Part shown: in pieces, positions 333 to 34,724 of the stretch
How positions within the stretch are numbered: position 1 is the stretch's first letter
Layout: every line of letters starts with the position of its first letter
Virus record (IMG/VR): IMGVR_UViG_3300022751_000034
Span: 1 to 34,761 of that record
Length of the DNA: 34,761 nt
Source: a virus
Strand: one strand, 5' to 3'
Program-made: the position numbers and the translations under genes
The notes under the pieces: model-generated
What the model was told of the DNA's origin: nothing
What the model saw: the letters and a program-made list of their open reading frames with translations, nothing else
The model's database searches: none

Positions 333-725
333 TTATTTACCGTAATATTCTATTGTTATTGTACAAAATAAAGCATCAGTAGCTATTAATTTAAGATTAA
401 CTACGTTAGTATTATTGTTTATCTCAAATAAATCTCCATCTCCCATCCACATACCTTTTGAAGCTGCTACAGGAGTGTCACCTACCTTTTGAGTATATCT
501 TAATAAATAAGTAGCATCTGTAGGAGTTCCTATTTTTTTAACCTTAATAATAACTCCACCAATATCCGCCGATGTAATACCTGATGGTAATATAGCAGAC
601 GTAAATGGTAAAGGTAATGCAGCAGACGTAAGAGTTAAATCTTCTGTACCTAAACATATCTTATCTGATAATTTACTATTAGTTTCTTTTATAGCTCTAA
701 TAATCTCTAATGTATCCTTGTCCAT
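333..725 (-). CDS. Small predicted virion protein (130 aa)
   Basis: I do not recognise the family. Residues 1-22 (MDKDTLEIIRAIKETNSKLS) form a short predicted amphipathic helix. The rest is beta-rich, with hydrophobic/Thr/Ser alternation and a C-terminal EYYGK. It lies between two virion-type genes, downstream of a terminator (751-789) and 5 bases before the fibre-like gene. That position suggests a small accessory tail or fibre-attachment protein. The ATG at 725 follows an AT-rich stretch with a TATAAT-like box close upstream, so this gene and the fibre gene may form their own transcription unit. Confidence 0.65.
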   Translation of the reverse strand: MDKDTLEIIRAIKETNSKLSDKICLGTEDLTLTSAALPLPFTSAILPSGITSADIGGVIIKVKKIGTPTDATYLLRYTQKVGDTPVAASKGMWMGDGDLFEINNNTNVVNLKLIATDALFCTITIEYYGK

Positions 726-750
726 TTTATTATATTTTATGTATCAAAAA

Positions 751-789
751 TAAATAAAAAAAGGGCTAGTTTTTTACGCCAGCCCTTTT
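751..789 (-). terminator. Intrinsic terminator after the 530-aa virion gene
   Basis: A 9-bp inverted repeat (AAAAGGGCT at 759-767 with AGCCCTTTT at 781-789) encloses a 13-nt loop. On the minus strand the stem is followed by a run of U. It lies 20 bases downstream of the stop at 810 and separates that gene from the next minus-strand unit. Confidence 0.85.
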
Positions 790-809
790 AATTTGTAATT
801 AATTATTTA

Positions 810-2402
810 TTAGTATTTCCATTTAGTAGTTGGTAATGCCATAATCTCATTTAATACTAAATCAGGGTCACCTGTAGACACATTTGCGTAACGTACAAAT
901 GGTATCATAATGTCAGTTGCATCGAATATTAAAGGAGTTGTACCTACTGAATAAACAGGATAAGTAACATCATTTAATTTACAAGTAACCACTCCGTTTT
1001 GAGCCACTAATACTTCTACTGTTACATAAGCTGTATCTGTTGGTATAATACCTGTAGATGTAGATACTGTCGCAGCATTATTTAAAATACCTTGAGTAGT
1101 AATTAAATCACCATTAGCTGCTAATGTACCTACTGCTGCTAAGTCAGTATAATCATTAAAATCAGCAGTATGAGCCGCTTTTCTACGGAAACCTACTAAC
1201 CATGCTGCATCTGTATAATCAGCCGCTTTTACACGAGCAAATACAGAGAATGGAGTTTTGCCTACAGTAAACTCTTTAGGACAATTAGTAAATAAATTTG
1301 GCGTGTATTCCGCACCTTCAGTATCAGCTAAATCTTGATCTAAAATTAAACCGTCATTTCCAGGAGTTGGAGTTGTTAATGTTTGAGAACCAATTTGAGT
1401 GTAAATCCACTTAGCATCTGAATACATTTTATTAGCTCCTGTAGCAGTTGGAACAGCACCAGCAGCACCTTGGAAAAAGATACCATTACTAAAGAAATCA
1501 ACTTGTGCAGATGGGTCTTGGTCAAAACGATTAGAAATACCTCTGTGCATAGATGATTCAAAAGCGATATAACCAGCTAAGTTAGTAGTAGTTGTTCCTG
1601 CTCCATTATCAACAAATACTTGTTGAGTTTTTACTAAGAACACTCTTGCAGCACCTTGAAAAGCTGTTGGTAAAGCTGTATCTTGTAAATAAGAGAAAGA
1701 GAACATATTATATTTCTGTCCGCTTACTGGCAAACCTCCTGTAATAGTTTTAGGAGCATCAATTTCACCTGAAATTAAGTTACCTGTCATGAAGTCATAA
1801 ACAGGAGCGTTATTTAACAAGATTAATCCTGTACCTGATTCGTAAACAGCAGGAGTAGTTAATACATAGTTAGTAGCCGCGAAACCACTTCCATCTGAAT
1901 TTGCTACAGGTTTAACAACAGAAGCACCTTTACGGTTATTCATTCCTTGACGATTGTAAGGGTAATAAGTAAGGTCATCTGTTACCGTAAATCCATTGCC
2001 TGAACCTAAACTAGCTGCAATAACGTAATTAGACGCTAAAAGATTAATCTTAGCTACTATTCCTAATGAAATTGCTTCACGTTGAGCAGCAGCATTACCT
2101 AATGTTGTTACATCAGCAGGGGTAGTAAACGAGTAAGGCTTAAGATTTTCTGTATAACCGTGATCCACTCTGTTGTTATCCCCTATTAAAACTGTATAGG
2201 TAGTGTCTGACGTAGGAGTATACGAGGTTGCACCAATTGTTACTACTTGCGCTACTTCCGCGCGATAATTGATTTGTGAGAAGTCTATGATTCTCGTTTG
2301 TTTCATCGGGTCTAATCCTGCAATTAGGATGTCGCCGCCACTGTACTGTACATCTGAACTTAGAGATGTTGTTAACAATACTGATTTGCCTTTCTGTGAC
2401 AT
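810..2402 (-). CDS. Putative virion structural protein (530 aa)
   Basis: This large protein is rich in Thr, Ala, Gly and Asn, with no signal peptide or membrane segment. It begins MSQKGKSVLLTTSLSSDVQY and ends LPTTKWKY. Its composition (beta-rich, repeated Thr/Val stretches) and position downstream of the head genes fit a virion component such as a tail, collar or decoration protein. I recognise no specific domain. The leader reads AAAACCAAATAAACAATG, the same type as at 5268 and 16070. A host-type box TACATTTG lies at 2442-2449 and the terminator at 751-789 follows, so it can be transcribed alone or with the 270-aa gene upstream. Confidence 0.75.
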   Translation of the reverse strand: MSQKGKSVLLTTSLSSDVQYSGGDILIAGLDPMKQTRIIDFSQINYRAEVAQVVTIGATSYTPTSDTTYTVLIGDNNRVDHGYTENLKPYSFTTPADVTTLGNAAAQREAISLGIVAKINLLASNYVIAASLGSGNGFTVTDDLTYYPYNRQGMNNRKGASVVKPVANSDGSGFAATNYVLTTPAVYESGTGLILLNNAPVYDFMTGNLISGEIDAPKTITGGLPVSGQKYNMFSFSYLQDTALPTAFQGAARVFLVKTQQVFVDNGAGTTTTNLAGYIAFESSMHRGISNRFDQDPSAQVDFFSNGIFFQGAAGAVPTATGANKMYSDAKWIYTQIGSQTLTTPTPGNDGLILDQDLADTEGAEYTPNLFTNCPKEFTVGKTPFSVFARVKAADYTDAAWLVGFRRKAAHTADFNDYTDLAAVGTLAANGDLITTQGILNNAATVSTSTGIIPTDTAYVTVEVLVAQNGVVTCKLNDVTYPVYSVGTTPLIFDATDIMIPFVRYANVSTGDPDLVLNEIMALPTTKWKY

Positions 2403-2441
2403 TGTTTATTTGGTTTTGTGCCTTTCGGCTGGTTTATAGTT

Positions 2442-2449
2442 CAAATGTA
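2442..2449 (-). promoter_or_regulatory. Bacteroidota-type -7 box TACATTTG
   Basis: On the minus strand TACATTTG matches TANNTTTG and lies about 40 bases upstream of the ATG at 2402. The preceding sequence (TATTGAAATAATATT) resembles that before the identical box at 5293-5300. No clear -33 TTTG at canonical spacing is seen, so the assignment is tentative. Confidence 0.5.
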
Positions 2450-2469
2450 AATATTATTTCAATATGAAT

Positions 2470-3282: not shown

Positions 3283-3325
3283 AGTGATAATTTTTAATAA
3301 AAGTAAATAAAAAAAGGCTTTGTAT

Positions 3326-3382: not shown

Positions 3383-4072
3383 ATGGGAGCATCTACGCCA
3401 AAACATTTTGACAGCAATGTTAAAAAAATAGGAACATTCGCAAGTTTTATTGATAATTCAGAAATAAAAAAAGAGCCAATGTTCTTTAATAGTGATTTGG
3501 ATTATGCTTATAATAATGGAGGTAAAATAACAAAATCATTTATAGATAATTTACCATTAGATTGGACTGAAAACTCTGTATTTGATAGTAGGGTTCATAT
3601 GCTAATGCCAGGTTGGTATCCTGCAATTCCTGGGTGGCATCATGATGATGTTCCTCGCCCCGAAATACCTACAGGACAACATTTTATTACCGCAGGTCAG
3701 CCAGACTATGATAATACTAAATATAAAAGCGAACATATATTAGGCTTAGTTAATGCTGATATATGTCCTACTGAATTTGCAACAGGCTCTTGTGTAATGC
3801 CCGAAATACCTGATGGAGAATTAATATATAGAAAATGGCATGAAGAGGTTAATCATCTTATAGCATTTGATAGATTAAATAAAATTAAAACAGAAGATAG
3901 GGCATTATATCAGTTCGATTGGCAAACTTTTCATAGCGGAACAAAGTGTGTTACTAATGGATGGAGATGGTTTGGAAGAGTTAGTAGAAATACAGATAGA
4001 GTAAACTCAATAACCAATGAAATAAGAGTTAATTGTCAGGTTTATTTAGAGTTTCCAATGGAAGGATGGTAA
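3383..4072 (+). CDS. Candidate 2-oxoglutarate/Fe(II)-dependent oxygenase-like protein
   Basis: The 229-aa protein contains GWHHDD (H86, H87, D88, D89), which can supply the HxD iron-binding motif. A distal FHSG (H184) and arginines R195/R199 are placed like the second His and the 2-oxoglutarate-binding Arg of the cupin-fold oxygenases. The preceding MLMPGWYPAIPGWHHDDVPR also resembles that fold's metal strand. Other possibilities are a non-oxygenase cupin or an unknown fold. It is a lone plus-strand gene inside minus-strand virion genes, with its own promoter (3326-3354) and terminator (4075-4111), so it is a cargo (moron) gene. Substrate unknown; the genome also encodes a cytosine methyltransferase (23294-24649), but no link is shown. 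Confidence 0.6.
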   Translation: MGASTPKHFDSNVKKIGTFASFIDNSEIKKEPMFFNSDLDYAYNNGGKITKSFIDNLPLDWTENSVFDSRVHMLMPGWYPAIPGWHHDDVPRPEIPTGQHFITAGQPDYDNTKYKSEHILGLVNADICPTEFATGSCVMPEIPDGELIYRKWHEEVNHLIAFDRLNKIKTEDRALYQFDWQTFHSGTKCVTNGWRWFGRVSRNTDRVNSITNEIRVNCQVYLEFPMEGW

Positions 4073-5749: not shown

Positions 5750-7225
5750 TTAAGCCGATTTACGGATTATAATCCATTTCTTCGTATCGTAGATAACAAG
5801 TAAGTCTTGTTTTAAATATGCACACTTCCACGCGTCCTCTTCTGTAATAGCCTCGCCAGGAAGTCCTGTCATACCATTAATAGTAGTCATAACGTTAGAA
5901 CGATTAGTGCCATAAGCACCTTTAGGTATAATCTCAATGTTAGCATCCATGAATGTTCCTAAATCACCACCAATATAAGTACTTGACATAATTAACTGAC
6001 CATCATTACCTCTCTCAGGGAAACGTAACTCATCATCAAATAAAGGATGTTGTACAAATGATACTGAACTTCCTGCGAAATTCATTTTAGTGATATGGTA
6101 TCCTACTTCAATTTCAGCACCACCAGTTACATTTTGCATTAACTGAGCGTTTTGAGCTAAGATGAAACGAGCCATCTTACGTTGAGCATTATAGTAACCA
6201 TCAATACCTGTCATGAAGATAATATTCACGCCTGTAGAGCTTGTAGAAGATTGTTTAGTTAACAATTTCATACCGTCGATAAAGTCATCTTCAGTAGCTT
6301 CACCGTTCACGCCTGAACCGTAAATTTCATTACCTCCTGAGATTTGTTCTTCGATACCATCACCCATTACGATGTAGTTACCTGTTTCGTTATCAATTAA
6401 GTTAGATTGACCTGCGCGAGAACCATCAGCGTTTTTCATAGTAGAAATACCGAAGATTTTAGCGTACTCATTTTCCATAGCCCATTGAGCTTCAGCTTGA
6501 CGTACTTTCTCGAATTTCCATCCTTTTACTGGTCCATTAGAAGACATATATTCATACCATAATACATCTGTTGCAGCATCTCCTGAGATAGCTACTGTCT
6601 TACGCTGAATAGTCATATCCACGATGAAAGTATCAGGGAATTGGTCACGACCATATCCTTTTAAAGATTTCTCTCCGTAACCTGTTGTAGAAGGGAAACA
6701 AGTATAAGTTCCTGTTCCTTGAGCCGCTACGTGTGTTGCGAATACGAATAACTCTTTTTGAGGATGTTGGAACGTATATAACCATCCTGCTGCTACCTTA
6801 GTAGGTTCAGCCATAGTCATTGCAGAGAAACGATTACCATAGAAAACAACAATCTGACCTTTGTAGATATAGTTGTCTTTCATGATTAATTGGAAAGTTC
6901 CATCTGCTTGCGTAGAACCAACTTGAGAGATAATAGTAGATGCTTTTTGGATACGTCCCATTACGTTAAAACGTAAAGCAGAATCTCCAATAGCTTGACC
7001 TTCTTTAATCTTACCGAATTTAGTAGGTTTCTTTAAGTCAATTCCATAAGGACCTACTGCTCCTGATGTTAATAAAGTTGTTAATTGACGTTGATCTACA
7101 CGCTCAAGCATTTGGCGAATAGCTGGGAATTTTTGCTGATTTCTTACTAAATCAGACTCTAAAGTACAGTCTGCTGAGAATGTACCTCTTACTAGGTTTG
7201 TTTGACCTGGATTTAAAGTTGGCAT
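5750..7225 (-). CDS. Major capsid protein
   Basis: The 491-aa protein follows portal and scaffold-like genes in the order expected for a tailed-phage head module, and its length fits an HK97-fold capsid subunit. The N-terminus (MPTLNPGQTNLVRGTFSADC) is followed by a helical region with conserved-looking QMLERVDQRQLTTLL, then mixed alpha/beta sequence ending KKWIIIRKSA. No signal peptide or membrane segment is seen. The assignment rests on size, gene order and general sequence character; I cannot align it here. It lies 42 bases from the scaffold-like gene and ends before a strong terminator, as expected for the most highly expressed late gene. Confidence 0.8.
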   Translation of the reverse strand: MPTLNPGQTNLVRGTFSADCTLESDLVRNQQKFPAIRQMLERVDQRQLTTLLTSGAVGPYGIDLKKPTKFGKIKEGQAIGDSALRFNVMGRIQKASTIISQVGSTQADGTFQLIMKDNYIYKGQIVVFYGNRFSAMTMAEPTKVAAGWLYTFQHPQKELFVFATHVAAQGTGTYTCFPSTTGYGEKSLKGYGRDQFPDTFIVDMTIQRKTVAISGDAATDVLWYEYMSSNGPVKGWKFEKVRQAEAQWAMENEYAKIFGISTMKNADGSRAGQSNLIDNETGNYIVMGDGIEEQISGGNEIYGSGVNGEATEDDFIDGMKLLTKQSSTSSTGVNIIFMTGIDGYYNAQRKMARFILAQNAQLMQNVTGGAEIEVGYHITKMNFAGSSVSFVQHPLFDDELRFPERGNDGQLIMSSTYIGGDLGTFMDANIEIIPKGAYGTNRSNVMTTINGMTGLPGEAITEEDAWKCAYLKQDLLVIYDTKKWIIIRKSA

Positions 7226-8465: not shown

Positions 8466-10685
8466 TTAAATATTCTCATTGTTTAGATTTTCAGCCTCTA
8501 TTTTATGAGCGTTTTCTGTAATTTTATTTCCTGCGGCGGCGGCCTGTACTTTTATATCAACTTCACCTTGCAAAATAATATTGTCTTTTTCGTTCAATTG
8601 ACGGTCCTCGCGGTCTTCTCTTGCTAATTGCATTTGCTGTTCTAATTGAGCTTGTTGCATTTGCTGTTGATTTGTCATCTGAGCTTGTTGGTTTTGACCT
8701 TCAATCTCTTTAATCTTAGCCCAACCATCTCTTAAGATAGCTTTTTGCTCTGTTGCTATATCTGACCACATAAATGCTAAAGCGTCTTCAGGACGTATCT
8801 CCTTAGCGTTAAGTGAAGCGTTTAACTGATCTCTCATAAATCTCATAATCTCAGCATAACGTCCACTATCTTCCAAGTGTACACCATAATCTTTAAATCC
8901 GATTAACTGAGTTACTTGTAGAAATTTATACTTACTTATTCCTAATATTTGCTCTCCTTTTTCCAATTTATAAAACGCCCAAGTTACCTTAGTACTCTCT
9001 ACAATCTTAGTTAAAGTTTTATTGATGTATTGGTATACTCCGTAAAAGAAAGGCTCTGTTATTGTCCTAGAAGCTTGAATAGCTGAATTAGTATTAGTTG
9101 CAGTTGCACTAGCCTGTATTTGTCCTTCTCTATCATTGTTAATACCTGTCATTCTATCCATCATGACTAGAATGTCGTTTTTAAATTGTACTAATGCGCC
9201 GAATGACTGACTTAATCCTAAATCATAAGTTTGTAAAATGTTATTTAAGCTTACATCTCTACCATGAAAGTTACCGCTTGCTGATGTATCATAAGTTACA
9301 AATCCATCATTTACAATATCATAGTTAATTTCTTTAACCGTTTTCTTTGCTCCTAACGCCGCCGTATTAAATCCTAAAATTGTTCCTTTATGTTTATTTA
9401 CATCTTTTAATATCTGATACATTACAATATCAAATATGTTAGACCAATTCTCCATTTCATTCATTAATGAGATACGTTTTCCGTCAACCGTTCCACATAA
9501 ATATCCTGTATATGAACCACTAAATATCTTAGTTGGGTCATCTACTCTTCTCATTTGGAACTGAGCTCGGCGCATATTAGTATCTAATTCCATCATTCCA
9601 CCTATACGAGTTGCTTCCCATAAGTCTTCTGTGTACCTTACTTCTATTTCGTATTTACCTTTTTCTACTTGCTGTTTATGCCAATCTGCGTTTTTCTCAT
9701 AAGCTTCTATATCCATTTGAGTAAATATATATTTCTCACTCGGGTCAAATGCTAATTGAGTTTCAGTTTTCTTAACTTTTTTAAAGTACATTGGACGTAC
9801 TGACTTCCATTCAATATGTATAACTTCTACTACTAATCCTCCTGATGGAGCGTACTTCATAGATGTTCCATACTGTTGAGAATAACTTTGTGGATTACTT
9901 GCAGCGTCTTGTAATTTATTAATTTGAGCCGTTGTTAATCTATATCTTCTTAATACTTCGTGTACAGACATCCATTGTCTGCATCCCATAATAGGGCTTT
10001 TTTCTAAGTAAGCATCTCCTTTTATTTCTTCATAAATAGCATCTCTAGGGTCAATACTTATGTAGTCAGTTTCACCTTCTCCATCTCTTTCTATTTTACC
10101 AAATATAATTGAGGTAATAGAACAGTTTAATAAGTCATTTGAGAACTTTTGCTTTAAATCTAATGAAGGTATTTGTTCATTAAGAATTATCTGCATGATA
10201 GTTTCTTCCTTATCTTTAGGAGACATCTTTTCAAATATTGGGTCTTCTTCGCTATCAGGTATCGGCGCTCCTTGCATTACATCTACACCTACTTTATCTC
10301 TTAGTTCAATTAACTCTTTCTTAGCTATCATAGCACCATACATAAAGCCCATCTTGTCCATTTTTTCGGACTTAGCATCTCTGTTTATAGTTTCTACTGT
10401 AGCGTTTAAAGGACGAGTCAAGAACTCTCCAACCATTAACTTAATCTTAGTGGAGTGTGCGCGGTAATCAACAAATTTAGAACGGTTTTGTCTTCCGTAT
10501 GTTTTAGTTAAGTAAAGTAAACTTTCTGGTCTTTTTACACCATTGTATGATTTAAAAGATTCATCCATTAAAGTTCTATTATAATCAGAACTTCTTAATA
10601 ATTGTTGTGCATAATCTAAATGTAGACGAACCCAATTATCGTTCTTATCTTTCTCTGGTAAAATTTGCGAAGGAAATTGCTTCAT
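8466..10685 (-). CDS. Portal protein
   Basis: The 739-aa protein lies directly after TerL and before the scaffold and capsid genes. Its portal-like features include MTGINNDREGQIQASATATN (the Gly/Ser/Ala-rich segment before the long clip/stem helices), then a helical region (SRTITEPFFYGVYQYINKTL), and a Gln-rich C-terminal coiled coil (QQAQMTNQQQMQQAQLEQQM). Size and architecture fit the large portals of Bacteroidota podoviruses. It forms the dodecameric DNA channel at one capsid vertex. Family recognition is by pattern and gene order. Confidence 0.85.
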   Translation of the reverse strand: MKQFPSQILPEKDKNDNWVRLHLDYAQQLLRSSDYNRTLMDESFKSYNGVKRPESLLYLTKTYGRQNRSKFVDYRAHSTKIKLMVGEFLTRPLNATVETINRDAKSEKMDKMGFMYGAMIAKKELIELRDKVGVDVMQGAPIPDSEEDPIFEKMSPKDKEETIMQIILNEQIPSLDLKQKFSNDLLNCSITSIIFGKIERDGEGETDYISIDPRDAIYEEIKGDAYLEKSPIMGCRQWMSVHEVLRRYRLTTAQINKLQDAASNPQSYSQQYGTSMKYAPSGGLVVEVIHIEWKSVRPMYFKKVKKTETQLAFDPSEKYIFTQMDIEAYEKNADWHKQQVEKGKYEIEVRYTEDLWEATRIGGMMELDTNMRRAQFQMRRVDDPTKIFSGSYTGYLCGTVDGKRISLMNEMENWSNIFDIVMYQILKDVNKHKGTILGFNTAALGAKKTVKEINYDIVNDGFVTYDTSASGNFHGRDVSLNNILQTYDLGLSQSFGALVQFKNDILVMMDRMTGINNDREGQIQASATATNTNSAIQASRTITEPFFYGVYQYINKTLTKIVESTKVTWAFYKLEKGEQILGISKYKFLQVTQLIGFKDYGVHLEDSGRYAEIMRFMRDQLNASLNAKEIRPEDALAFMWSDIATEQKAILRDGWAKIKEIEGQNQQAQMTNQQQMQQAQLEQQMQLAREDREDRQLNEKDNIILQGEVDIKVQAAAAGNKITENAHKIEAENLNNENI

Positions 10686-10724: not shown

Positions 10725-12755
10725 CTAACTACCAAATCCTTCATAATCTGTTTCAGGATTAATAGGTCTTGTAAATTCTCCTACTGGAACTACATTACCA
10801 TTTTTATCTTGAGTCCATCCGCCGAGACTAAAAGGGTCTTCTTTCTCTTGGTAAGTATCATCTCTTGGCGCTGCTGTTAAGCTAATAGATTGCATCAAAG
10901 CAATACCATAAGCATCTGCTAAGTCATTATCACTTCCTATCTCTACTTCATCAAAGTTACCTAATTGATTAATTAATTCAGGAAACCAAATATTTTGAAT
11001 ATAGTCATGTATAGAAGATTGCATAGCCCCTACCATTAAAGGACGGCTATAGGCGTTTAATGACACCCAAAATTCATGTGACTGCTCACTATTCATACTC
11101 TCAAACTTAGTAGGTCTTGGAGCTAAATACTTCATGCAATTACTATCCTTGTACCAATTAATAATACCTGAGCTACTAGCCTTATCTCCTAATGTATTTC
11201 CCACTAAATCATAATAAATAGATAGCTTTAAACACATATCAAAGAATATTTCTTTTCTTTTAGGTCTCGTAGATATAACTGCTACTGGCATATTAAAAGG
11301 AACTCCGAATGGATTGGCTCGTGTTATTACACACATAGCTCCTAATGATTTAGAAACACCTTTATCCTGATCGTAAGGGTCAATTCCAGCTACATATAAA
11401 TTTTTATACTTCTTATCAGGATGGTATTCATCAAGTATTAGGATACAATCTCCTTCATCATCTGTATCTTTCGCTGGAACAGCTTTTACTCTTAGTGGAT
11501 TCAATCTTTCTAATGTACCTTCTTTAGTTACCCACTCTAGTTTCCACTTTGAGTATTTTGACTTACTTACAGTTATTTGGTCCTGTTGCTCATTAATTTT
11601 CTGTATATCGAAGTTGTTACTAAACATCTTTCTAAATATCTCTGCCTGTGTAAGTGGATTATTCTGTAAGTGTTCCAAATAAAGCTTCAACTCACCTTTT
11701 TTTAGTTCTTCACGTTCTTTTAAAATATCTGCCTTAGCCGCTTCTAAATCTTCGCATCCTACTAATTGGTAAGGTTTATAAATCTTAGATAGATTCGGCG
11801 TTATACCAATTACTTTTCCTTTTCTTGTGGCTCCACCATAATAAGGTTTCTTAAATCTCTCTCCTGTTAATACAAACATAATTGCATTAAAGTCTTTCAG
11901 ATTCTCTACTAAGAATTTAAAATCTTTTGAGCCTTTATTAATATTACCACCTGTACCAAACATATACATTACACCTACCTGAACTCCGCCGTCTGTTAAA
12001 GCATCTTTTGTAGCTGAGTAAAACTCTTTCCAATTTTCAAACTCTCCTGTTTCTTCACATATAACATCATTCAAATATGTTCCCTTTAATATATTAGGGT
12101 TGTTATGCGCAGTTCTTATGTATATCTCACTCTTTATTCCTTTCTCTACGTCTTTACCATTCTCTACTACTATATATCCTGAAGTAATTTCTTCTTCATT
12201 CTTAGTCAACTGATTAAGTTTAAATTCAGGTACTAATAAAGATTCTGATATTTTAAGCTTCTTAATGAAGTCATCTGCATAAGTCTTCTTTCCTGCTGCT
12301 ACACCTGCATGGTAAGCAGGCATGAATCTATAACCATAATCGACTACTGCTTTCTGAAAGAACTCTGATACACCTGCTCTACGCTTCTTAGGTAGAACTA
12401 AGTTTAAGTTATTGTCTTTACAGAAGTCTACTATATAAGCCATCTGTAAGTGCATATCACAAAAGTCAGGAGTTATTACACCTGATACAGTAGCCATAGA
12501 GTTAAAATTCATGTAATAATAGAATCTCCCTGGTAAAAATATACCTCCTGTTTGGTAGCCATTAATACATCTGTACAACTGCTCGGTCCAATATTGTTCA
12601 TATTCAGGAGTGCCTACACATTTAGGGTTTCTTACACTATCTGCGTATTCAGGTATACCGTATACTACTACGGGGTTGCTGCAAAAATTTTTCCCTTTGA
12701 TATATGGAATTTGCGGTATCGGCAACTCTTCTATTCGTTTTCCTGCGTAATTCAT
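10725..12755 (-). CDS. terL: Terminase large subunit (TerL)
   Basis: ATP-driven packaging motor with nuclease, 676 aa. A Walker A-like segment is PKKRRAGVS (residues 122-130), a deviant P-loop of the kind seen in terminases. Walker B is LNDVICEETGEF (228-239) with the D230...E234/E235 acidic cluster. The RNase H-like nuclease domain shows YVAGIDPYDQD (D459) and a distal SDNDLADAYGIA (D611/D614). The start at 12755 is 2 bases after the stop of the candidate small terminase (12758), so the two are translationally linked. The portal follows after 39 bases. Host-range and packaging type cannot be read from the sequence. Confidence 0.9.
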   Translation of the reverse strand: MNYAGKRIEELPIPQIPYIKGKNFCSNPVVVYGIPEYADSVRNPKCVGTPEYEQYWTEQLYRCINGYQTGGIFLPGRFYYYMNFNSMATVSGVITPDFCDMHLQMAYIVDFCKDNNLNLVLPKKRRAGVSEFFQKAVVDYGYRFMPAYHAGVAAGKKTYADDFIKKLKISESLLVPEFKLNQLTKNEEEITSGYIVVENGKDVEKGIKSEIYIRTAHNNPNILKGTYLNDVICEETGEFENWKEFYSATKDALTDGGVQVGVMYMFGTGGNINKGSKDFKFLVENLKDFNAIMFVLTGERFKKPYYGGATRKGKVIGITPNLSKIYKPYQLVGCEDLEAAKADILKEREELKKGELKLYLEHLQNNPLTQAEIFRKMFSNNFDIQKINEQQDQITVSKSKYSKWKLEWVTKEGTLERLNPLRVKAVPAKDTDDEGDCILILDEYHPDKKYKNLYVAGIDPYDQDKGVSKSLGAMCVITRANPFGVPFNMPVAVISTRPKRKEIFFDMCLKLSIYYDLVGNTLGDKASSSGIINWYKDSNCMKYLAPRPTKFESMNSEQSHEFWVSLNAYSRPLMVGAMQSSIHDYIQNIWFPELINQLGNFDEVEIGSDNDLADAYGIALMQSISLTAAPRDDTYQEKEDPFSLGGWTQDKNGNVVPVGEFTRPINPETDYEGFGS

Positions 12756-13304: not shown

Positions 13305-13832
13305 TTATAATAATTTACAATTTATCCTGTTTCTCTTTTTACCACTTAGCATTGCAGCTACATACGTATGGCTTAACCCAAGCTCTTTTCTTAAATCACT
13401 TATACATTCATAAACCTTTCCATTAACAGTATTTATAACTTGTTTTGATAATTTATGATTTAACCCTTTCCTTAATTTATTTCTAGCTACTGTTAAACTT
13501 ATCGCTTTTTCCGAAACTTTTAATAATCCAGTCCTATATGCATGTATTGCGTTTTCAGACATGGTACACCATTCTAAATTAGAAACATGATTATTTAACT
13601 TATTACCGTCTTTGTGATTAACCTCTGGCTTATTCTCAGGATTATTAATGAATGCAATAGCAACTAATCTGTGTAGACTATAGTTTTTCTTTTTACAATC
13701 ACTATATATAGAAACACTCCTGTAGCCATTGTGTCCTATCCACGATTTTATAAAGATGTTGTTTTTTTTACTCCAAACGTCTCCGTTTTCATTTACGAGA
13801 TAATTGCCGCATCCTAAAATTTCTTTCATCAT
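13305..13832 (-). CDS. Free-standing HNH homing endonuclease
   Basis: The 175-aa protein has an N-terminal NUMOD4-like segment (VNENGDVWSKKN), an HNH core (SLHRLVAIAFINN with H54, then EVNHKDGNKLNNHVSNLEW with N72-H73), and a C-terminal NUMOD1-like helix-turn-helix (CISDLRKELGLSHTYVAAML). It belongs to the selfish endonucleases that spread between phage genomes. It is placed between a terminator (13848-13882) and the packaging genes, abutting the next gene by one base. It therefore seems inserted at an operon boundary and is probably expressed at low level by read-through. No intron structure is seen around it. Confidence 0.9.
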   Translation of the reverse strand: MMKEILGCGNYLVNENGDVWSKKNNIFIKSWIGHNGYRSVSIYSDCKKKNYSLHRLVAIAFINNPENKPEVNHKDGNKLNNHVSNLEWCTMSENAIHAYRTGLLKVSEKAISLTVARNKLRKGLNHKLSKQVINTVNGKVYECISDLRKELGLSHTYVAAMLSGKKRNRINCKLL

Positions 13833-13899: not shown

Positions 13900-14085
13900 T
13901 TAATGTTTGTAATTTCTCTTATAAACTACACTTGTTTCCATATATCTCTTAAAGTATTTAGGAGTATCTTGGTATTGTTGGTTATGCTCTTTTAGGATTT
14001 GTTTATCCTCATTAGCTATTACAATCCATGCTATACATCCGCCGATACCGAAAATGAATATACCTTGTAAGATTGTTTTAAGCAT
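13900..14085 (-). CDS. Small single-pass membrane protein (61 aa)
   Basis: I chose the ATG at 14085 (MLKTILQ...) because it overlaps the stop of the upstream gene (14078-14080). An in-frame ATG at 14097 would add four residues inside that gene. Residues 4-23 (TILQGIFIFGIGGCIAWIVI) form a membrane segment; the remaining tail is polar. No family recognised. It is the last gene before a strong terminator. Confidence 0.6.
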   Translation of the reverse strand: MLKTILQGIFIFGIGGCIAWIVIANEDKQILKEHNQQYQDTPKYFKRYMETSVVYKRNYKH

Positions 14086-14428: not shown

Positions 14429-15259
14429 TTAGAACCACTCATCGTCTACGGTTATTGTTTTAGTTTCTATTACTGTTTCGGCTGTTATGTTAATAGTATT
14501 ACTTAAATCATCTAGTATTTCATCTTTAAATGTAGCTAATAGCACTTCAATGTCGTTTTTAAGATAGTTAACATTTACCACATGGTTCTCAAAACTTACT
14601 AATCTATCATTCTCATCCCACTTTGGAACTATTAAGTCTATGAATAGTCTTTCGCATTTCCGTCCAGTTAATTTTTCAAAATGTCTGGCGTAATAACTTA
14701 ATTGAAAGCTGATTTTCGTAAATTTCGTATTAGGCAGATGTTCAAATGGTGCGTTTAGCCAAGGTTGGTCTTTTACAACTTCAAATAAGCTCGGTAATCC
14801 TTTTTGAAAACATTTCCAATCTCCTTTATGGAATCTACTGTCTTTACGATTAGTTACTATACAAGTTGCATCTGTACTACCTGCCGATCTAGTTTCTAAA
14901 TCATATACTGTAACTTGATTATACACGCTATGATAATCTTTATACTTAGCTAGTACATAAGGTATAAGTTCTTTTAAATCGTCATCAGTAGGTAGGATTG
15001 TAGCTGTTTGCAGGTATCTTTCTAAGGCGTTATCGACTCTTGTTCCTTGTTCTGCCGTCTTAGCCCATTTTGCTTTTAGGTCATCGGCGGATGAAGAACC
15101 ATATTTAGCTATCTGCTTACTTATCTTATCTGCATCAAACTTCTTTACTAGCTTACCATATAAGGCAGAAAATGAGATGTATTGATTACCTTTTGAATCA
15201 AAGTATTTATGCTCATTAGGCTCTAAATACACCTCATTTTTGAATAGATTGTGAATCAT
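14429..15259 (-). CDS. PD-(D/E)XK-superfamily nuclease, RecB/Cas4-like
   Basis: The 276-aa protein has the ordered motifs of RecB-type exonucleases: EQGTRVDNALERYL (residues 70-83, equivalent of the GxxxH helix), GSTDATCI (127-134, D130 as metal ligand), LFEVVKD (158-164, E160 and K163, spaced ExxK instead of the usual ExK) and FQLSYYARHFEKLTG (185-199, the QxxxY motif). Roles in phages include recombination, end processing and host DNA breakdown. Its stop is followed by the P-loop gene, and the gene upstream (15261-16070) is separated by one base, so they probably act together. Confidence 0.7.
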   Translation of the reverse strand: MIHNLFKNEVYLEPNEHKYFDSKGNQYISFSALYGKLVKKFDADKISKQIAKYGSSSADDLKAKWAKTAEQGTRVDNALERYLQTATILPTDDDLKELIPYVLAKYKDYHSVYNQVTVYDLETRSAGSTDATCIVTNRKDSRFHKGDWKCFQKGLPSLFEVVKDQPWLNAPFEHLPNTKFTKISFQLSYYARHFEKLTGRKCERLFIDLIVPKWDENDRLVSFENHVVNVNYLKNDIEVLLATFKDEILDDLSNTINITAETVIETKTITVDDEWF

Positions 15260-16772: not shown

Positions 16773-16931
16773 TTATATACTAATTATAATTCCGTTAAAC
16801 TTTCCACACCAACAGACTACTCTATCGCCTTTTCTGGATTTAATAGGTAAAATATATTTTAAACCTTTCTTTTTCAGTCTATCCTTCATTTTCCTTGAAC
16901 ATCGGCGGCTAAATCTTTTCTTAAATCTCAT
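16773..16931 (-). CDS. Very basic small protein (52 aa)
   Basis: ATG at 16931, stop at 16773-16775. The first 24 residues carry many Lys/Arg (MRFKKRFSRRCSRKMKDRLK), followed by a hydrophobic C-terminus with CWC. It could bind nucleic acid; no family recognised. The start overlaps the stop of the gene upstream (16928), consistent with translational coupling. Confidence 0.55.
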   Translation of the reverse strand: MRFKKRFSRRCSRKMKDRLKKKGLKYILPIKSRKGDRVVCWCGKFNGIIISI

Positions 16932-17110
16932 ATCTCTTTACTTTTTAAATAATACTCATATATCTCATCACTTATCCACTCTAAACTAGCAAATGGAAAA
17001 CTAGTATGACTTATCAATACATAGTCTATATCTTCCATATCATACTCCGAGAAGTAATGAAGTACTATCTTACATGGTGTTATATCTTGTGTTAGTACTA
17101 GCTTAGTCAT
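16928..17110 (-). CDS. Small hypothetical protein (60 aa)
   Basis: I take the ATG at 17110, which forms a TAATG stop/start overlap with the upstream gene; an in-frame ATG at 17119 would add three residues. The sequence is acidic and aromatic (FSEYDMEDIDYVLISH, ISDEIYEYYLKSKEI). Function unknown. Confidence 0.55.
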   Translation of the reverse strand: MTKLVLTQDITPCKIVLHYFSEYDMEDIDYVLISHTSFPFASLEWISDEIYEYYLKSKEI

Positions 17111-17307
17111 TATCTGCATCTCCTAGCTTTAATTTTCAAGGCTTTAGTGTAATTAAAAACCAAGTCATTAAATAGTTGTTTACTCAAATATGTGTCCGCC
17201 TGTTTGCCGTCAATAGTTACATATTTAGTAAAGAAGTAATGCGGATCATTCTTACACAATTCAATTTCTTTTAACATATCGGCGGATAAACCTTCTTCTT
17301 TTCCCAT
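17110..17307 (-). CDS. Small protein with a terminase-N-terminus-like motif (65 aa)
   Basis: Residues 18-37 (CKNDPHYFFTKYVTIDGKQA) follow the pattern C-x2-DP-x-YF-x3-Yv-x-I-x-G found at the N-terminus of T4-type large terminases, but no ATPase domain follows. It may be a stand-alone version or remnant; function unknown. It has its own phage-type promoter (17316-17344) ending 8 bases before the ATG. It is translationally coupled to the next gene by TAATG. Confidence 0.55.
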   Translation of the reverse strand: MGKEEGLSADMLKEIELCKNDPHYFFTKYVTIDGKQADTYLSKQLFNDLVFNYTKALKIKARRCR

Positions 17308-18649: not shown

Positions 18650-18823
18650 TCCTATTAGAATAGTATTGGTTGTGTTATGTACTCCTATAAAATTAGATAT
18701 ATACTCTCATAGATTTATATTGCTTCTCTCATCCGCCGACCTGCTGCTGCTTATAATTTATAGCTACTCATCCGCAACCATACAAGCCAATCAATACTCA
18801 TCCTAATATAACACACCTCTTTT

Positions 18824-19150: not shown

Positions 19151-19265
19151 TTAACAACAGTAAACTAAATTTGGCACGGCATATTCGGCGGATATTTAAA
19201 CGAAATAAATTACACGAACGGTTTTATAAGCTGATAGAAAACATTATCATTCACTTTAGTATATA

Positions 19266-20741: not shown

Positions 20742-20830
20742 TAAATCTAAATATTGGCGGTTGTTCTCATTTATGAGTAGCCTTGACACTAGGAGTATTC
20801 GCCGCCGATATTTAATAATAAAATGTAACC

Positions 20831-22690: not shown

Positions 22691-22948
22691 ATGGAAACTC
22701 ATTTAAACATATCATTAGAAGGAGAAGAACTGGAATACAAAGTAAGGTATTCAAGGTATAGAGAAACATCGTCAGATGAAGCAGAAATCGTTATAGATGG
22801 AATTTACTTAGACGATAAAGAATTGATGCACTTATTTTCAGATGATGTGATAGAAAATATCAAAGACGATTGTGAACGTCATTATAATCGTATGCAACTC
22901 ATTTGGATGCGTGAACGCGACGATAGATTCTCATCCGCCGATGTGTAA
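22691..22948 (+). CDS. Acidic hypothetical protein (85 aa)
   Basis: Asp/Glu-rich, with a beta-like start (METHLNISLEGEELEYKVRY) and a helical end (DDVIENIKDDCERHYNRMQL). It follows the previous gene by 2 bases. Its last codons (SSADV) contain the ATCCGCCGA motif in a frame that reads Ser-Ala-Asp with rare codons. It is the last plus-strand gene before the convergent junction, where I see no terminator hairpin. Confidence 0.55.
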   Translation: METHLNISLEGEELEYKVRYSRYRETSSDEAEIVIDGIYLDDKELMHLFSDDVIENIKDDCERHYNRMQLIWMRERDDRFSSADV

Positions 22949-22973: not shown

Positions 22974-23297
22974 TCACTTGATTTTAAACATTATACAATC
23001 AACTTGGTCGAGAGAGCGAAAACCTGCATTTAATATGTGGGTTTTTCCGCTTTTAGCTAATACTTGCGTCTTTACCAAACGTCTTAAGCTAGTAGCTAAT
23101 GTCTGATAAGGCACTCCTAAATCTCTTTCTATCTTTAATCTAGTGTACTTATCTAAGTGGAAGGACCACATGTCATACTTAATAAAAGCTTTGATTAGAT
23201 TTATTTCTCCATCCGCGCGAACACCAAACTGATATGCTAATACTCTTATGAATTGGTCTTCCTTATCTCCTGTTAGATATAATGTTTTAGCTTTCAT
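22974..23297 (-). CDS. Winged-helix-like protein downstream of the methyltransferase (107 aa)
   Basis: I take the ATG at 23297, which overlaps the methyltransferase stop as ATGA; a longer frame from 23336 would reach into that gene. Residues about 30-75 include FHLDKYTRLKIERDLGVPYQ and TLATSLRRLVKTQVLAKSG, which looks like a winged helix-turn-helix with the recognition helix in the second segment. It probably binds DNA. Candidate roles are a regulator of, or specificity partner for, the methyltransferase, or a replication factor. Confidence 0.6.
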   Translation of the reverse strand: MKAKTLYLTGDKEDQFIRVLAYQFGVRADGEINLIKAFIKYDMWSFHLDKYTRLKIERDLGVPYQTLATSLRRLVKTQVLAKSGKTHILNAGFRSLDQVDCIMFKIK

Positions 23298-24649
23298 AAG
23301 TAACTTAATATATGTGAAATTACAGAAATCGTCCAACCATTTCCAATCATCTTGTAACGTTGTGAATCAGAAACATGAGCTGTATATCCATCTTTCATAC
23401 ATTGCAAACGCTCACACTCTGTTGGAGTCAATCGTCGGATTCTTGAATTGTTTAATAAAACTTTGGCTTGTGCATTTTTAGTGGTTAAGGTTTGACTATG
23501 ACCATCTTCATAATAAGCTCTACTATCTTGAGCAAAACCATCCTGTTTATACTGTAAATTATTTACAGTATAAACTAAATTATCCTTTTGAACAGTTGTA
23601 ATACAATTAGTCTTACCATCGTCAGGATTCCTTGGTTCTAACATCTGCTCTGTTGGTAATCCTGATACTCTACTCTTAGGATTTTCCTGGTTACGTCCAC
23701 GCATTGCTACTATTTGAATAAGGTCCATATCAGAATGATTACCTCCTGAATGACCTCCTGCTGTAAAACAACTTGCTTTATCTTGATTAGCTTTTGATTT
23801 ACCGTCTTTATGTCTTATTTGAATTTGTTTGGGCTGCTTATAATCTGTGGCATTTAAACATCCCATTTTACCTTCAGTACCATAAACTTCATCTCTTTGT
23901 CCGATAGTTCTAAAGTATGGAGCTGTGGTTCCAATGACATTGGAACCTTTTATTTGCTCTTTAAATCTATTAGTAACCTCTTCACTTAAATAATACTTTT
24001 CGTTGACATCACTTTCAAGTATATCTCTTAACAAAATACCCTTGTCTTTTGGTTGCTTTATCATACACTTTAAATCTCCAAATAAACCATCTTGTTCTGC
24101 TCCTATGTTAGTCCAATACAAACGTCTGCGATTCTGCGCTGATAATAAAGCACTATTGATTTCTATAGGATTTATGCCAATCGCTTGAGTTAATATCCTT
24201 TGCCATTTCTCTCCCATCATTACGTTTTCTAATAAGAATTTAACGTCATGATTAACCTTTCTTATGTCTGTTAGTATTCTCATATACTCCCAAAATAGGT
24301 ATGACTGTCCTTCAAATTCAAAGTTTTGACTCTTTAATTCCAGGTAATGCTCTAAGGTTAATATCTCGATATTATCTTTAGTACTCATTCCTTTACGTTT
24401 ACCAGCAAAACTGAAACTTTGGCAAGGTGAGCCACCACACAATACAGATATATGCTTTAGTTTACTCACATCAACGTCTGTAACGCTTCCTAATTGGATT
24501 GTGTTAGGATAATTTGCAGTCGTAACAGTAATAGCATATTTATCTATTTCTGAAGCATAATAGTTGTCTACTTTAATGCCTAATCTGTCTAATGCTTGTT
24601 GTCCTCCTGAGCAGCCGTCAAACAAACTCAATACGTTAAATTCTTTCAT
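23294..24649 (-). CDS. DNA C5-cytosine methyltransferase
   Basis: The 451-aa protein has the ordered C5-methyltransferase motifs: I (LFDGCSGG, residues 9-16, SAM binding), IV (GGSPCQSFSFAG, 72-83, catalytic C76), VI (ENV, 141-143), VIII (QNRRRLYW, 172-179), a long variable target-recognition region of about 200 residues, IX (RRLTPTECERLQ) and X (MIGNGWTISV). It makes 5-methylcytosine in duplex DNA, most likely to protect the phage from restriction. The target sequence cannot be read. It overlaps winged-helix genes on both sides by 4 bases. No cognate restriction enzyme is visible, so it is an orphan enzyme. Confidence 0.92.
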   Translation of the reverse strand: MKEFNVLSLFDGCSGGQQALDRLGIKVDNYYASEIDKYAITVTTANYPNTIQLGSVTDVDVSKLKHISVLCGGSPCQSFSFAGKRKGMSTKDNIEILTLEHYLELKSQNFEFEGQSYLFWEYMRILTDIRKVNHDVKFLLENVMMGEKWQRILTQAIGINPIEINSALLSAQNRRRLYWTNIGAEQDGLFGDLKCMIKQPKDKGILLRDILESDVNEKYYLSEEVTNRFKEQIKGSNVIGTTAPYFRTIGQRDEVYGTEGKMGCLNATDYKQPKQIQIRHKDGKSKANQDKASCFTAGGHSGGNHSDMDLIQIVAMRGRNQENPKSRVSGLPTEQMLEPRNPDDGKTNCITTVQKDNLVYTVNNLQYKQDGFAQDSRAYYEDGHSQTLTTKNAQAKVLLNNSRIRRLTPTECERLQCMKDGYTAHVSDSQRYKMIGNGWTISVISHILSYL

Positions 24650-25218
24650 AATTTATTCCTTTCTGATGCTTTAGTTCTTAGTAATTCTTTCTCATATATA
24701 GTGTTTAACTTATCACAATAGTCTGTTAATCCTTTCTTAATCAATTCATTATCTCCATCCGCCGAATCCAAAATAGCCATATAGTCCTTTTGGCAGTTGT
24801 GATGACTAAATATCCTGAAGTTATGTGTATATACCATCATAGGATTAACCATGTAAAAAGACTTCTTTGTGAGCTTTATAAGCATACCTTTCTCTATTAA
24901 TGATATGAAGGCCATCCGCGCATTAGTCATGCTTGTAGTGTATTCTATGCGCTCTTTACCGTATATCTCTATCGCTCTATCAGATGCAGAGTCAAACTTC
25001 CTTAGTAACTCAGAACTATACTTTACTACGTTTATACCATTTGAATAGCCTACGATCCAATTTAAAAGGACGTGTTCAGTAGGTTTAAGGTATAAGCAGC
25101 AATTATTAAAATGGCGAGTAAATCTCTTGTTTAATGAGTGTATAGATAGTGGCTGAGTAATGTATAAGTTCTTTAGCTCGGCGGATTCTACAAGGTGAGT
25201 ATTACCTTTACTTTTCAT
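24646..25218 (-). CDS. Winged-helix DNA-binding protein (190 aa)
   Basis: Residues about 45-125 (LKPTEHVLLNWIVGYSNGIN, SSELLRKFDSASDRAIEIYG, SMTNARMAFISLIEKGMLIK) resemble the winged-helix domain of Bacteroidota plasmid and phage replication-type proteins. YMVNPMMVYTHN fits the typical ending of the wing. It overlaps the methyltransferase start (ATGA at 24646-24649). A role in control of the methyltransferase or in replication is plausible. No lysine/arginine-rich tail is needed for the assignment. Confidence 0.6.
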   Translation of the reverse strand: MKSKGNTHLVESAELKNLYITQPLSIHSLNKRFTRHFNNCCLYLKPTEHVLLNWIVGYSNGINVVKYSSELLRKFDSASDRAIEIYGKERIEYTTSMTNARMAFISLIEKGMLIKLTKKSFYMVNPMMVYTHNFRIFSHHNCQKDYMAILDSADGDNELIKKGLTDYCDKLNTIYEKELLRTKASERNKL

Positions 25219-25986: not shown

Positions 25987-26217
25987 TTATTGATTAGCGA
26001 ATCCTAAACTTACTATTACTTCTACGCTTACTACTTTAAGAGGTTCTTTTACTTTTAGTCTTTCTAATTGCTTATTAGCAAATGTAGGGTGGTATAATCC
26101 ATCTGTTTGCTTATACACTACTCCGCGCAATGTTACAAACTCAGCTTCATTCTTTCCTTTAGCTTCTTTTAATAAAAGTGTTAAATTGGCAAATACGATT
26201 TCTTTAGGCTTAAGCAT
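25987..26217 (-). CDS. Hypothetical protein (76 aa)
   Basis: MLKPKEIVFANLTLLLKEAK, then a beta-rich middle (AEFVTLRGVVYKQTDGLYHP) and a basic Leu/Val-rich end. No recognised family. It overlaps the previous gene by 8 bases (26210-26217). Confidence 0.5.
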   Translation of the reverse strand: MLKPKEIVFANLTLLLKEAKGKNEAEFVTLRGVVYKQTDGLYHPTFANKQLERLKVKEPLKVVSVEVIVSLGFANQ

Positions 26218-26566
26218 CTATTTGTTTTAAAGTGATTTCAAATTTATCCAAGAACTTGTCTTTATCTTCCTTATAACTTTTAATCAGTTGGCTTATTACT
26301 ATTAGATCATCCGCCGATGCTGAAGTTAAATTTTCTACTAACCCCTTATAATCTCTCATCAAGTTAACTGTAAATTGCTCATCTACCTCAAATACTTTAG
26401 GTAATTCAATTTTAAGCATCTTTTCTAACTCATTGGATAGATTACATGACAAGTGTTTAATCTGTTGTCTGTACACAGGAGTATCCTTTAAATCCTCCAA
26501 ATAATTAGATAGTAATTCGGTGCATATTACTGTATTAGCGTAAATGAATAGTTGTGTCTCAGTCAT
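26210..26566 (-). CDS. Helical hypothetical protein (118 aa)
   Basis: All-helical in appearance, with SCNLSNELEKMLKIELPKVF and a Lys/Asp-rich C-terminus. It contains ATCCGCCGA as Ser-Ala-Asp-Asp (SASADDL). Overlaps both neighbours by 8 bases. Function unknown. Confidence 0.5.
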   Translation of the reverse strand: MTETQLFIYANTVICTELLSNYLEDLKDTPVYRQQIKHLSCNLSNELEKMLKIELPKVFEVDEQFTVNLMRDYKGLVENLTSASADDLIVISQLIKSYKEDKDKFLDKFEITLKQIDA

Positions 26567-29390: not shown

Positions 29391-29561
29391 TTATAAATAA
29401 TATCCTTCTCTGTCATATCTCCATTTATTTATATACTGACTACCGAAGTAACTTTTATTGAATGCTATCCGCCGACTCTCATGGTCCTTATTAGTCTGAC
29501 TCATGTAATCTGTATTACTCTTACTAGGATTTAACTTCTTTCTACTTTTAGTTGGTTTCAT
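29391..29561 (-). CDS. Very basic small protein (56 aa)
   Basis: ATG at 29561; a TTG 21 bases upstream (29582) is an alternative start but lies inside the previous gene. Lys/Arg/Ser-rich (MKPTKSRKKLNPSKSNTDYM), with a Tyr/Trp-rich C-terminus (YINKWRYDREGYYL). Likely nucleic-acid binding; family unknown. It contains the ATCCGCCGA motif in a different reading frame from the Ser-Ala-Asp cases. Confidence 0.55.
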   Translation of the reverse strand: MKPTKSRKKLNPSKSNTDYMSQTNKDHESRRIAFNKSYFGSQYINKWRYDREGYYL

Positions 29562-32398: not shown

Positions 32399-32779
32399 AT
32401 GGAACAAGTAAGATACTACGATTTTATAAAACGTATTTGCGAAGACTTTAATTTAGAAATTGATATGGAGTATGTATTGCCACTCCCCGCCGATAAAAAA
32501 TTCATAAAAGGATTTACTACATCAAGAGCAGGTGACATTAGAATCTTTGATGGCGAATTAGAGCATCCTTATATGATGGATAAACATAGTTGTCAAAGAA
32601 ATGATAAAGCGTTTGCCATAGGTAAAGAATTAAGATATAAAGGCACTAAATCAATGGCTGATATTATTAATGAATCAGGAGTTAAATTAGAAACTAAGAA
32701 ATGTAGAATCTGCGAAGGTGGCGGATGGTCATCAGAAGGTACAAGATATATTTACAAGGATATTTACTGTGAGTTGTAA
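32399..32779 (+). CDS. Hypothetical protein (126 aa)
   Basis: No recognised family. Mixed alpha/beta (VRYYDFIKRICEDFNLEIDM), with a C-terminal KKCRICEGGGWSSEG that could bind metal with C68 nearby. First of four genes here that each have a phage-type promoter. Its stop TAA is embedded in the GTAACCTT box of the next promoter (32776-32783). Confidence 0.6.
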   Translation: MEQVRYYDFIKRICEDFNLEIDMEYVLPLPADKKFIKGFTTSRAGDIRIFDGELEHPYMMDKHSCQRNDKAFAIGKELRYKGTKSMADIINESGVKLETKKCRICEGGGWSSEGTRYIYKDIYCEL

Positions 32780-32805: not shown

Positions 32806-32822
32806 TACTTAAATTATATATT

Positions 32823-33374: not shown

Positions 33375-33375
33375 T

Positions 33376-33404: not shown

Positions 33405-33426
33405 AGGTAAATTAAAACAAAACAAT

Positions 33427-33752: not shown

Positions 33753-33768
33753 CTAATAAATAACTGCC

Positions 33769-34092
33769 ATGAAAGAAATAGAGCTTAATCAAAAAGACCA
33801 ATTAGAGGTAACTATTAAACAAAAAAAGCAAGTTGAGAAAAAGTTAATCGGCGATATTGTTCCGCACAATGGTCACAAAATTTGGAAAATAAATAAAGAA
33901 ACTTTAGAAGTTGAAGAAGCTAAATATCTTAATACTGCTTTTTATGTTGGTAAAGAAAATAAAAAGGAAATATTAGTTACTGATGGATTTGAATACATAT
34001 CTGCGCTAAACAAAAAGAACGCCTTAAAATTATTTAATAAAGGCAAAGTTGGCGGAAAAGAAATAGATAAAGAACCACTAAAATTAAACTAA
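33769..34092 (+). CDS. Lysine-rich hypothetical protein (107 aa)
   Basis: KKQVEKKLIGDIVPHNGHKI (residues 19-38) then WKINKETLEVEEAKYLNTAF, a pattern I associate with small Bacteroidota phage proteins containing a PH(N/P)GH motif. Basic; function unknown. It shares a transcript with the KTSC gene 11 bases downstream. Confidence 0.55.
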   Translation: MKEIELNQKDQLEVTIKQKKQVEKKLIGDIVPHNGHKIWKINKETLEVEEAKYLNTAFYVGKENKKEILVTDGFEYISALNKKNALKLFNKGKVGGKEIDKEPLKLN

Positions 34093-34103
34093 TAAAATAA
34101 GCC

Positions 34104-34316
34104 ATGATAACAGAACAAGAAGTAGTGAGTAGTCAATTCAAGAAAGTAAAGTATGATAGTGAGTATAAGATTCTAATTATAACTTTCAATAACGACAAGA
34201 GATATGAGTATAAAGATGTGCCTCAGTCTACGTTTGATGGTTTGATGTCGGCAGATAGTTTAGGTTCTTATTTCGGTAAATTCATTAAAGGTCATTTTGA
34301 TTATCGTCCATTGTAA
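34104..34316 (+). CDS. KTSC-domain protein
   Basis: The 70-aa protein has the complete KTSC pattern: VVSSQFKKVKYDSEYKILII, then F-x8-YEYKDVP, FDGLMSADSLGSYFGKFIKG. KTSC domains occur as short stand-alone phage proteins or fused to lysyl-tRNA synthetase-type and RNA enzymes; molecular role not settled. It is the last protein gene before the structured right end. Confidence 0.8.
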   Translation: MITEQEVVSSQFKKVKYDSEYKILIITFNNDKRYEYKDVPQSTFDGLMSADSLGSYFGKFIKGHFDYRPL

Positions 34317-34332
34317 TTAAAATTATTATCAG

Positions 34333-34340
34333 TAAATTTG
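34333..34340 (+). promoter_or_regulatory. Host-type -7 box TAAATTTG
   Basis: TAAATTTG lies inside the first of two TTATCAGTAAA repeats (34326-34336, 34361-34371), with ATTG about 22 bases upstream in the -33 position. It could start a transcript through the stem-loop, the tRNA and the structured RNA. Confidence 0.45.
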
Positions 34341-34365
34341 GACATCGTTCTTTTAAAGTTTTATC

Positions 34366-34429
34366 AGTAAAGCATCCGCAAACTAACTTTTAACAAGTGG
34401 GTTTATTTAAGACAAGCGGATGCTTTACT
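34366..34429 (+). ncRNA. Long stem-loop upstream of tRNA-like gene
   Basis: AGTAAAGCATCCGC (34366-34379) is perfectly complementary to GCGGATGCTTTACT (34416-34429), a 14-bp stem around a 36-base loop, followed by TTTATTT. It may be a terminator, a processing stem, or part of the larger structured RNA that continues to the right. Confidence 0.6.
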
Positions 34430-34435
34430 TTATTT

Positions 34436-34516
34436 AGCAATGATGAGCATATTGGTTAGGCTCAACTCCGTTTAAGGAGTCCTGTAAAGTTGTAGGTTCG
34501 ATTCCTGCCATTGCCA
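34436..34516 (+). tRNA. Atypical tRNA-like gene, anticodon uncertain
   Basis: D stem GAGC/GCTC, anticodon stem ACTCC/GGAGT, T arm GTAGG-TTCGATT-CCTGC and acceptor AGCAATG/CATTGCC (first pair A-C mismatched) are clear. The anticodon loop has only six bases (GTTTAA) and the variable loop eleven. With U33 kept, the anticodon would be UUA (a reader of the UAA stop); with another register, UUU (Lys). It may be a degenerate tRNA. Confidence 0.6.
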
Positions 34517-34520
34517 CAAA

Positions 34521-34724
34521 TTGCAAGGTAACGCTAAAGGCGTAAAATGTGATGCGGTATGCCGTTTTACTTCCTATTAGTCTACAATTGACACTTTCCT
34601 CCATGAGGTTTCAAATGATAAGTGTAAGCGTAGATAACTTGCAATATTTCTTTAAATTCGTTTAGGTAATCGGCGGATGAAAAATAAGACTGAGTTAGGC
34701 AATTATACTCAGGAATAGATTACC
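34521..34724 (+). ncRNA. Structured non-coding RNA at the right end
   Basis: TTGCAAG (34521) closes with CTTGCAA (34638) around ACGC/GCGT, GTAAAA/TTTTAC, TCTAC (34581)/GTAGA (34630), ACACTT (34591)/AAGTGT (34620) and the tight hairpin CCTC-CAT-GAGG (34598-34608). A second domain is GGTAATC (34665)/GATTACC (34718) enclosing CTGAGT (34690)/ACTCAG (34707). No open frame fits. The structure probably continues past the window. Large ornate phage RNAs such as GOLLD lie near tRNAs, but I cannot assign this one. Confidence 0.6.

Follow-up and report, generated by a model that had tools for sequence, protein, structure and literature searches.

Genome Features of the Window

The DNA under study, referred to below as the window, is a stretch of 34,761 bp from an IMG/VR virus record with a G+C content of 32%, and it is probably a fragment of a virus genome. 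Genes of Crassvirales type for the terminase large subunit, portal and major capsid were identified by PHROG family matches (Table 1), in an order which is also found in Cellulophaga phage phi14:2 and in cr115_1. On this gene content the window belongs to a distant crAss-like phage. No family placement is claimed, since its terminase is only 22–27% identical to those of crAss-like and related named phages. The start codons lack Shine-Dalgarno sequences and are preceded by A-rich leaders, a context that fits a Bacteroidota host. The exonuclease is predicted to serve the phage in recombination or in the processing of DNA ends.

Within the PHROG 1843 gene, a stretch of 188 bp matches two Aeromonas phages at 75.7% DNA identity; the gene was not found in the relatives searched, and was therefore probably transferred between distant phages. 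The HNH endonuclease gene is patchily present beside the terminase cluster in relatives and is likely a mobile gene.

Table 1. Genes of the window and sites of the over-represented word (core, CCGCCGA).
Feature	Position	Strand	Remarks
PHROG 1843 protein	3383-4072		
Major capsid	5750-7225		PHROG family match
Portal	8466-10685		PHROG family match
Terminase large subunit	10725-12755	-	PHROG family match
HNH endonuclease	13305-13832		
Exonuclease	14429-15259	-	phrog_298
C5 methyltransferase	23294-24649		
ATCCGCCGA copy 1	564-572	+	In ORF 333-725(-), Ser-Ala-Asp (TCG GCG GAT)
ATCCGCCGA copy 2	10817-10825	+	Terminase gene, Gly-Gly frame
ATCCGCCGA copy 3	14037-14045	+	Short conserved ORF 13900-14085(-); kept in G003, G008, G015
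ATCCGCCGA copy 4	15084-15092	-	Exonuclease gene, Ser-Ala-Asp (TCC GCC GAT)
Core, flank G	16902-16908	-	
ATCCGCCGA copy 5	17279-17287	-	Ser-Ala-Asp, ORF 17110-17307(-)
ATCCGCCGA copy 6	18731-18739	+	Intergenic
ATCCGCCGA copy 7	19185-19193	-	Intergenic
Core, flank G	20802-20808	+	Intergenic
ATCCGCCGA copy 8	22933-22941	+	Ser-Ala-Asp, ORF 22691-22948(+)
ATCCGCCGA copy 9	24757-24765	+	Ser-Ala-Asp, ORF 24646-25218(-)
ATCCGCCGA copy 10	25178-25186	-	Ser-Ala-Glu, ORF 24646-25218(-)
ATCCGCCGA copy 11	26309-26317	+	Ser-Ala-Asp, ORF 26210-26566(-)
ATCCGCCGA copy 12	29467-29475	+	Arg-Arg frame, ORF 29391-29561(-)
Core, flank C	32487-32493	+	ORF 32399-32779(+)
ATCCGCCGA copy 13	34670-34678	-	Intergenic

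Over-Representation of a Short Word

A first-pass annotation of this DNA had reported a strongly over-represented 9-mer, ATCCGCCGA, and all 13 copies that it listed were found to be exact (eight on the plus and five on the minus strand); this is the top 9-mer of the window. The expected number for the 8-mer within it is 0.16 by dinucleotide shuffles, none of 100 of which reached 13, and the Markov check that had been proposed agrees, a second-order model predicting 0.15 copies of the 8-mer and 0.05 of the 9-mer. A maximal-order Markov model is uninformative, as it is built on the word's own sub-words. The 8-mer is preceded by A in 13/13 copies, and that A by C or T in 12/13 (the exception being 25178), exactly as described. 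Three more copies of the core have another flank, the reversed control word has zero copies in the window and one-mismatch copies of the core are nearly absent from it. The word is scarce in the virion genes, as had been noted, with no ATCCGCCGA between 573 and 10816. Four of the 16 sites are intergenic, which does not amount to an intergenic preference (p = 0.27); the copies described earlier as non-coding (18732, 19185 and 34670) are intergenic by the ORF call made in this analysis.

The strongest null used was a synonymous-codon shuffle, in which the proteins and codon usage are held fixed. It gave a mean of 0.05 copies and a maximum of two in 1000 runs, compared with 10 observed in coding sequence. 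The use of rare codons in Ser-Ala-Asp, to which the first-pass annotation had pointed, extends to the motif-rich phages as a group, where TCC GCC or TCG GCG is present at 30 of 61 distinct Ser-Ala-Asp/Glu sites, in either orientation, against 0.4 expected. The same codon pairs occur at 2/18 such sites in motif-poor relatives (p = 0.005), and at 11/226 places where Ser-Ala is not followed by Asp or Glu (p = 4e-15). The tripeptide itself was counted 84 times in motif-rich proteomes (49 expected) and 23 times in motif-poor ones (37 expected), homologues not being merged in these counts. In this group of phages, selection for the word acts on the DNA itself, at many scattered places, and persists where it imposes rare codons.

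The Word in Related Phages

Relatives were collected by terminase searches of viral contigs, which gave 31 and then 63 loci, and whole records or long stretches of these were compared. CCGCCGA ranks first or second among the 7-mers of the window and of G003–G009, G015, G018 and G019, with 5–18 copies observed against 0.2–1.5 expected (a ~10–41-fold excess in the relatives). Enrichment in relatives, which the first-pass annotation had set as a check, holds for these phages and fails in the group with ~60% terminase identity (G010–G014, G017 and G023–G025), where no comparable enrichment was found. The 9-mer is not the form kept among relatives; the conserved unit is the 7-mer CCGCCGA with a flank specific to the lineage. 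The 5′ flanks are ATCC-, GCC-, ACC- or TCCC-, the full forms being ATCCGCCGA (window, G003, G006, G008 and G015), GCCGCCGA (G003, G005 and G007), ACCGCCGA (G009), TCCCGCCGA (G018 and G019) and CCCGCCGA (L080). Across the wider clade the variants CCGCCGT, CCGCCAA and CCGCCGC are mildly enriched. CCGCCGA is not enriched in the named phages phi14:2, FpV4 and cr115_1 (49–50 kb of each).

Gains and losses of sites are seen throughout the aligned relatives. At the place of window position 15084, G003 and G015 hold the word in the opposite orientation, Ser-Ala-Asp being coded both ways, and at the place of copy 2, G001 (terminase 91% identical) has ATCCGCCTA. The word is absent from the G001 contig, but since most of that contig consists of virion genes, this is weak evidence of loss.

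More distant relatives have strong words of their own, which proved to be of different kinds, namely a tandem repeat in L088 and a palindrome in L104. Another word, GCCGATG(AA), is enriched in L081, several of its copies lying at apparent gene starts. Among the relatives, G007 (IMGVR_UViG_3300020492_000001; 76.3 kb) has a 99-bp terminal direct repeat, by which this member of the clade is probably circular and complete. G006 encodes a RusA-like resolvase and a helicase gene (L042:5736-8360) with an intein carrying a homing endonuclease domain, the aligned G007 protein being shorter.

Placement and Direction of the Sites

The sites were found to be concentrated on one side of the terminase gene. 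In seven relatives, 61 copies lie in the 67.6 kb upstream of terminase (up to 12 kb each) and 6 in 64.4 kb downstream, with densities of 0.84–1.0 per kb within 12 kb upstream and 0.09 per kb downstream. In the stretch from -12 to -6 kb the copies divide 27:0 between the strands, with TCGGCGG on the sense strand of terminase; the 10 copies of opposite direction between -6 and 0 kb represent a few sites common by descent. When homologous sites are merged by hand, the approximate count over the whole 12 kb is ~20:3 (p = 0.0005). This bias is present whether a site lies in a plus gene, in a minus gene or between genes, and sites along and opposite to the direction of the gene are about equally frequent. 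In the near relatives G006 and G007, which are full-length or near-full-length, direction differs between the halves flanking the presumed origin, placed by us from gene divergence and GC skew (p = 0.013 and p = 0.022, respectively).

The window shares the clustering of its relatives upstream of terminase, with 14 copies on the 22 kb that lie upstream of its start (~0.6 per kb) and two in the 12.8 kb from there to the left end (p = 0.07), without their shared direction, its counts being nearly balanced (10:6 for all cores, 8:5 for the 9-mer). In the distant group of G018 and G019, sites are present on both sides of terminase and the upstream clustering is weaker.

Occurrence in Bacteroidota Genomes

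CCGCCGA was counted in 395 Bacteroidota genomes against two controls, first its reversal and then the permutation ACCGCCG, equal to it in composition and CpG number. No comparable enrichment was found among these genomes, CCGCCGA reaching at most ~2.2 times ACCGCCG in tables read by eye, and the true host may not be among those sampled. In host candidates with high counts (e.g., G398 and G351), the word is not top-ranked in the small stretches read; the reads for G122, G355, G111 and G209 covered 4–11 kb. One alignment scan for the phage terminase in bacterial genomes recovered no relative.

Four of the Bacteroidota genomes (G078, G175, G215 and G349) show an extreme word avoidance, with not one CGNCG in the 400 kb that were read (564 expected for CGCCG/CGGCG and 220 for CGACG/CGTCG). 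CCGCCGA counts in the whole genomes, of 4.2–4.3 Mb, were 0, 0, 0, and 1.

A Chi-Like Signal as the Best-Fitting Explanation

Among the candidates listed in the first-pass annotation, a Chi-like signal read by a host enzyme of the AddAB/RecBCD type fits best and remains the leading reading, at a probability of roughly 0.4. The match rests on over-representation of a short and asymmetric word, a G-rich strand, density, clustering at terminase and a mostly uniform direction in relatives. A helicase-nuclease of this type, most likely that of the host, would enter a free end of the phage DNA, arising for example from the packaging cut by terminase or from a broken fork. On the G-rich strand the word, 5′-TCGGCGG(AT)-3′, would act as the Chi site, at which destruction of the DNA would cease and the end would be passed to recombination. 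Oriented TCGGCGGAT sites would presumably protect linear DNA from AddAB, and where they are dense by the terminase and packaging end, little DNA would be lost. Within this scheme we infer the enzyme, the direction of packaging and the tracking of host Chi differences by differences in the flank.

Several observations weigh against a Chi-like role. Chi works in one direction only, whereas direction is nearly balanced in the window, and at one Ser-Ala-Asp site the direction of the word differs from relative to relative. The weaker upstream clustering in G018 and G019 and the exonuclease that the phage itself carries are also counted against Chi, and the origin on which the test of G006 and G007 depends was of our own placing. 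The host scan, too, weighs against the reading and gives it no support, yet is compatible with it, because E. coli Chi is just ~2.3-fold over-represented in its own host (PMC3784561) and the true host may be unsampled.

A precedent comes from E. coli phages without recombinases, in which Chi is over-represented, its density in the host being 0.2 per kb (Bobay et al., 2013; PMC3784561). The word resembles Chi of these phages in being short, asymmetric, G-rich on one strand and over-represented in phage, with sites gathered by the packaging end in some members and a similar density per kb. It differs in its far greater excess over expectation in an AT-rich genome, in a flank that varies by lineage and in the balanced direction of the window. 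The Chi of Bacteroides fragilis AddAB has been stated to be unknown (PMC4027173), and phages that rewrite their codons offer a concrete, testable candidate. Tentatively, CCGCCGA (TCGGCGG) could be the first candidate Chi for a Bacteroidota AddAB, exposed by the phages that depend on it, in which case the flank variants would be host Chi dialects. Lineage-specific words selected in phages would then be a route to further Chi candidates.

Alternative Functions

The word may instead be recognized by a sequence-specific protein which the phage encodes and which would compact, partition, mark or regulate its DNA, the flank co-evolving with that protein. This is a serious rival, somewhat less probable than the Chi reading, as the sampled Bacteroidota genomes show no comparable enrichment. 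A core kept with lineage-specific flanks, the loss of the word in some relatives and, in the window, the near lack of one-mismatch copies and the nearly balanced direction would all suit such a protein. However, simple binding does not need the uniform direction seen in relatives, and no gene with a recognizable DNA-binding domain is present in all motif-rich and absent from motif-poor phages, among contigs that are incomplete; nor was a convincing correlation found between the word and any one gene. Were the reader a phage protein, the word would be a new genome-wide phage DNA signal of evolving specificity. On present data, nucleoid, partition and replication-protein sites, which had also been suggested, cannot be separated from Chi.

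The DNA uptake sequences of Neisseria offer a parallel to the flank variants, having a conserved core with lineage-specific dialects and being heavily repeated, also inside genes; they differ in lying in bacterial chromosomes and in being read by pilin. We know of no use of this type in tailed phages.

It is unlikely that the word is a replication signal, recognized by the primase of the phage or by a different replication protein and running in the direction of the fork, even though direction in G006 and G007 follows position relative to the presumed origin and not the genes. Forks must cross the 12 kb downstream of terminase, which are almost without sites, and direction is balanced in the window. 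In addition, a word of 7–9 bp exceeds the known primase sites in length.

Stoperator-like operators, at which an asymmetric repressor bound to dispersed sites blocks transcription elongation, are known from Cluster A mycobacteriophages, and share with the word their asymmetry, genome-wide dispersal and group-specific sequence (PMC6550527, PMC9283540). Stoperators are 13 bp and follow the direction of transcription, of which the word is independent, and this reading is quite improbable given also the lack of intergenic preference in the window and that no repressor or integrase was recognized among proteins scanned by profile, in a scan that was not exhaustive.

A methyltransferase target had been proposed as well, and the window does encode a C5 methyltransferase; a target of restriction is a related reading. 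Both are very improbable, as homologues of the enzyme do not co-occur with the word, being found among the sequences searched only in motif-rich G008, motif-poor L081 and, weakly, L085, and as restriction leads to avoidance of a word rather than its enrichment. Finally, the notion that the word simply follows from the protein sequences, from codon usage or from the base composition, to which the many copies coding for Ser-Ala-Asp/Glu might point, is refuted by the synonymous shuffles; the copies in Gly-Gly and Arg-Arg frames and in intergenic DNA also speak against it, in line with the first-pass annotation.

A Putative Phage Promoter

The Bacteroidota -7/-33 promoter consensus is no more frequent in the window than in shuffles. 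A separate repeated sequence, TGTAACCTT, has eleven copies there (at 3325, 5328, 17337, 18446, 20711, 22155, 29378, 32363, 32775, 33375, and 33722), most of them with a CGTATAA-like sequence ~15 bases further along, and is enriched in G007 too. Together the two elements are likely to form a phage-specific promoter.
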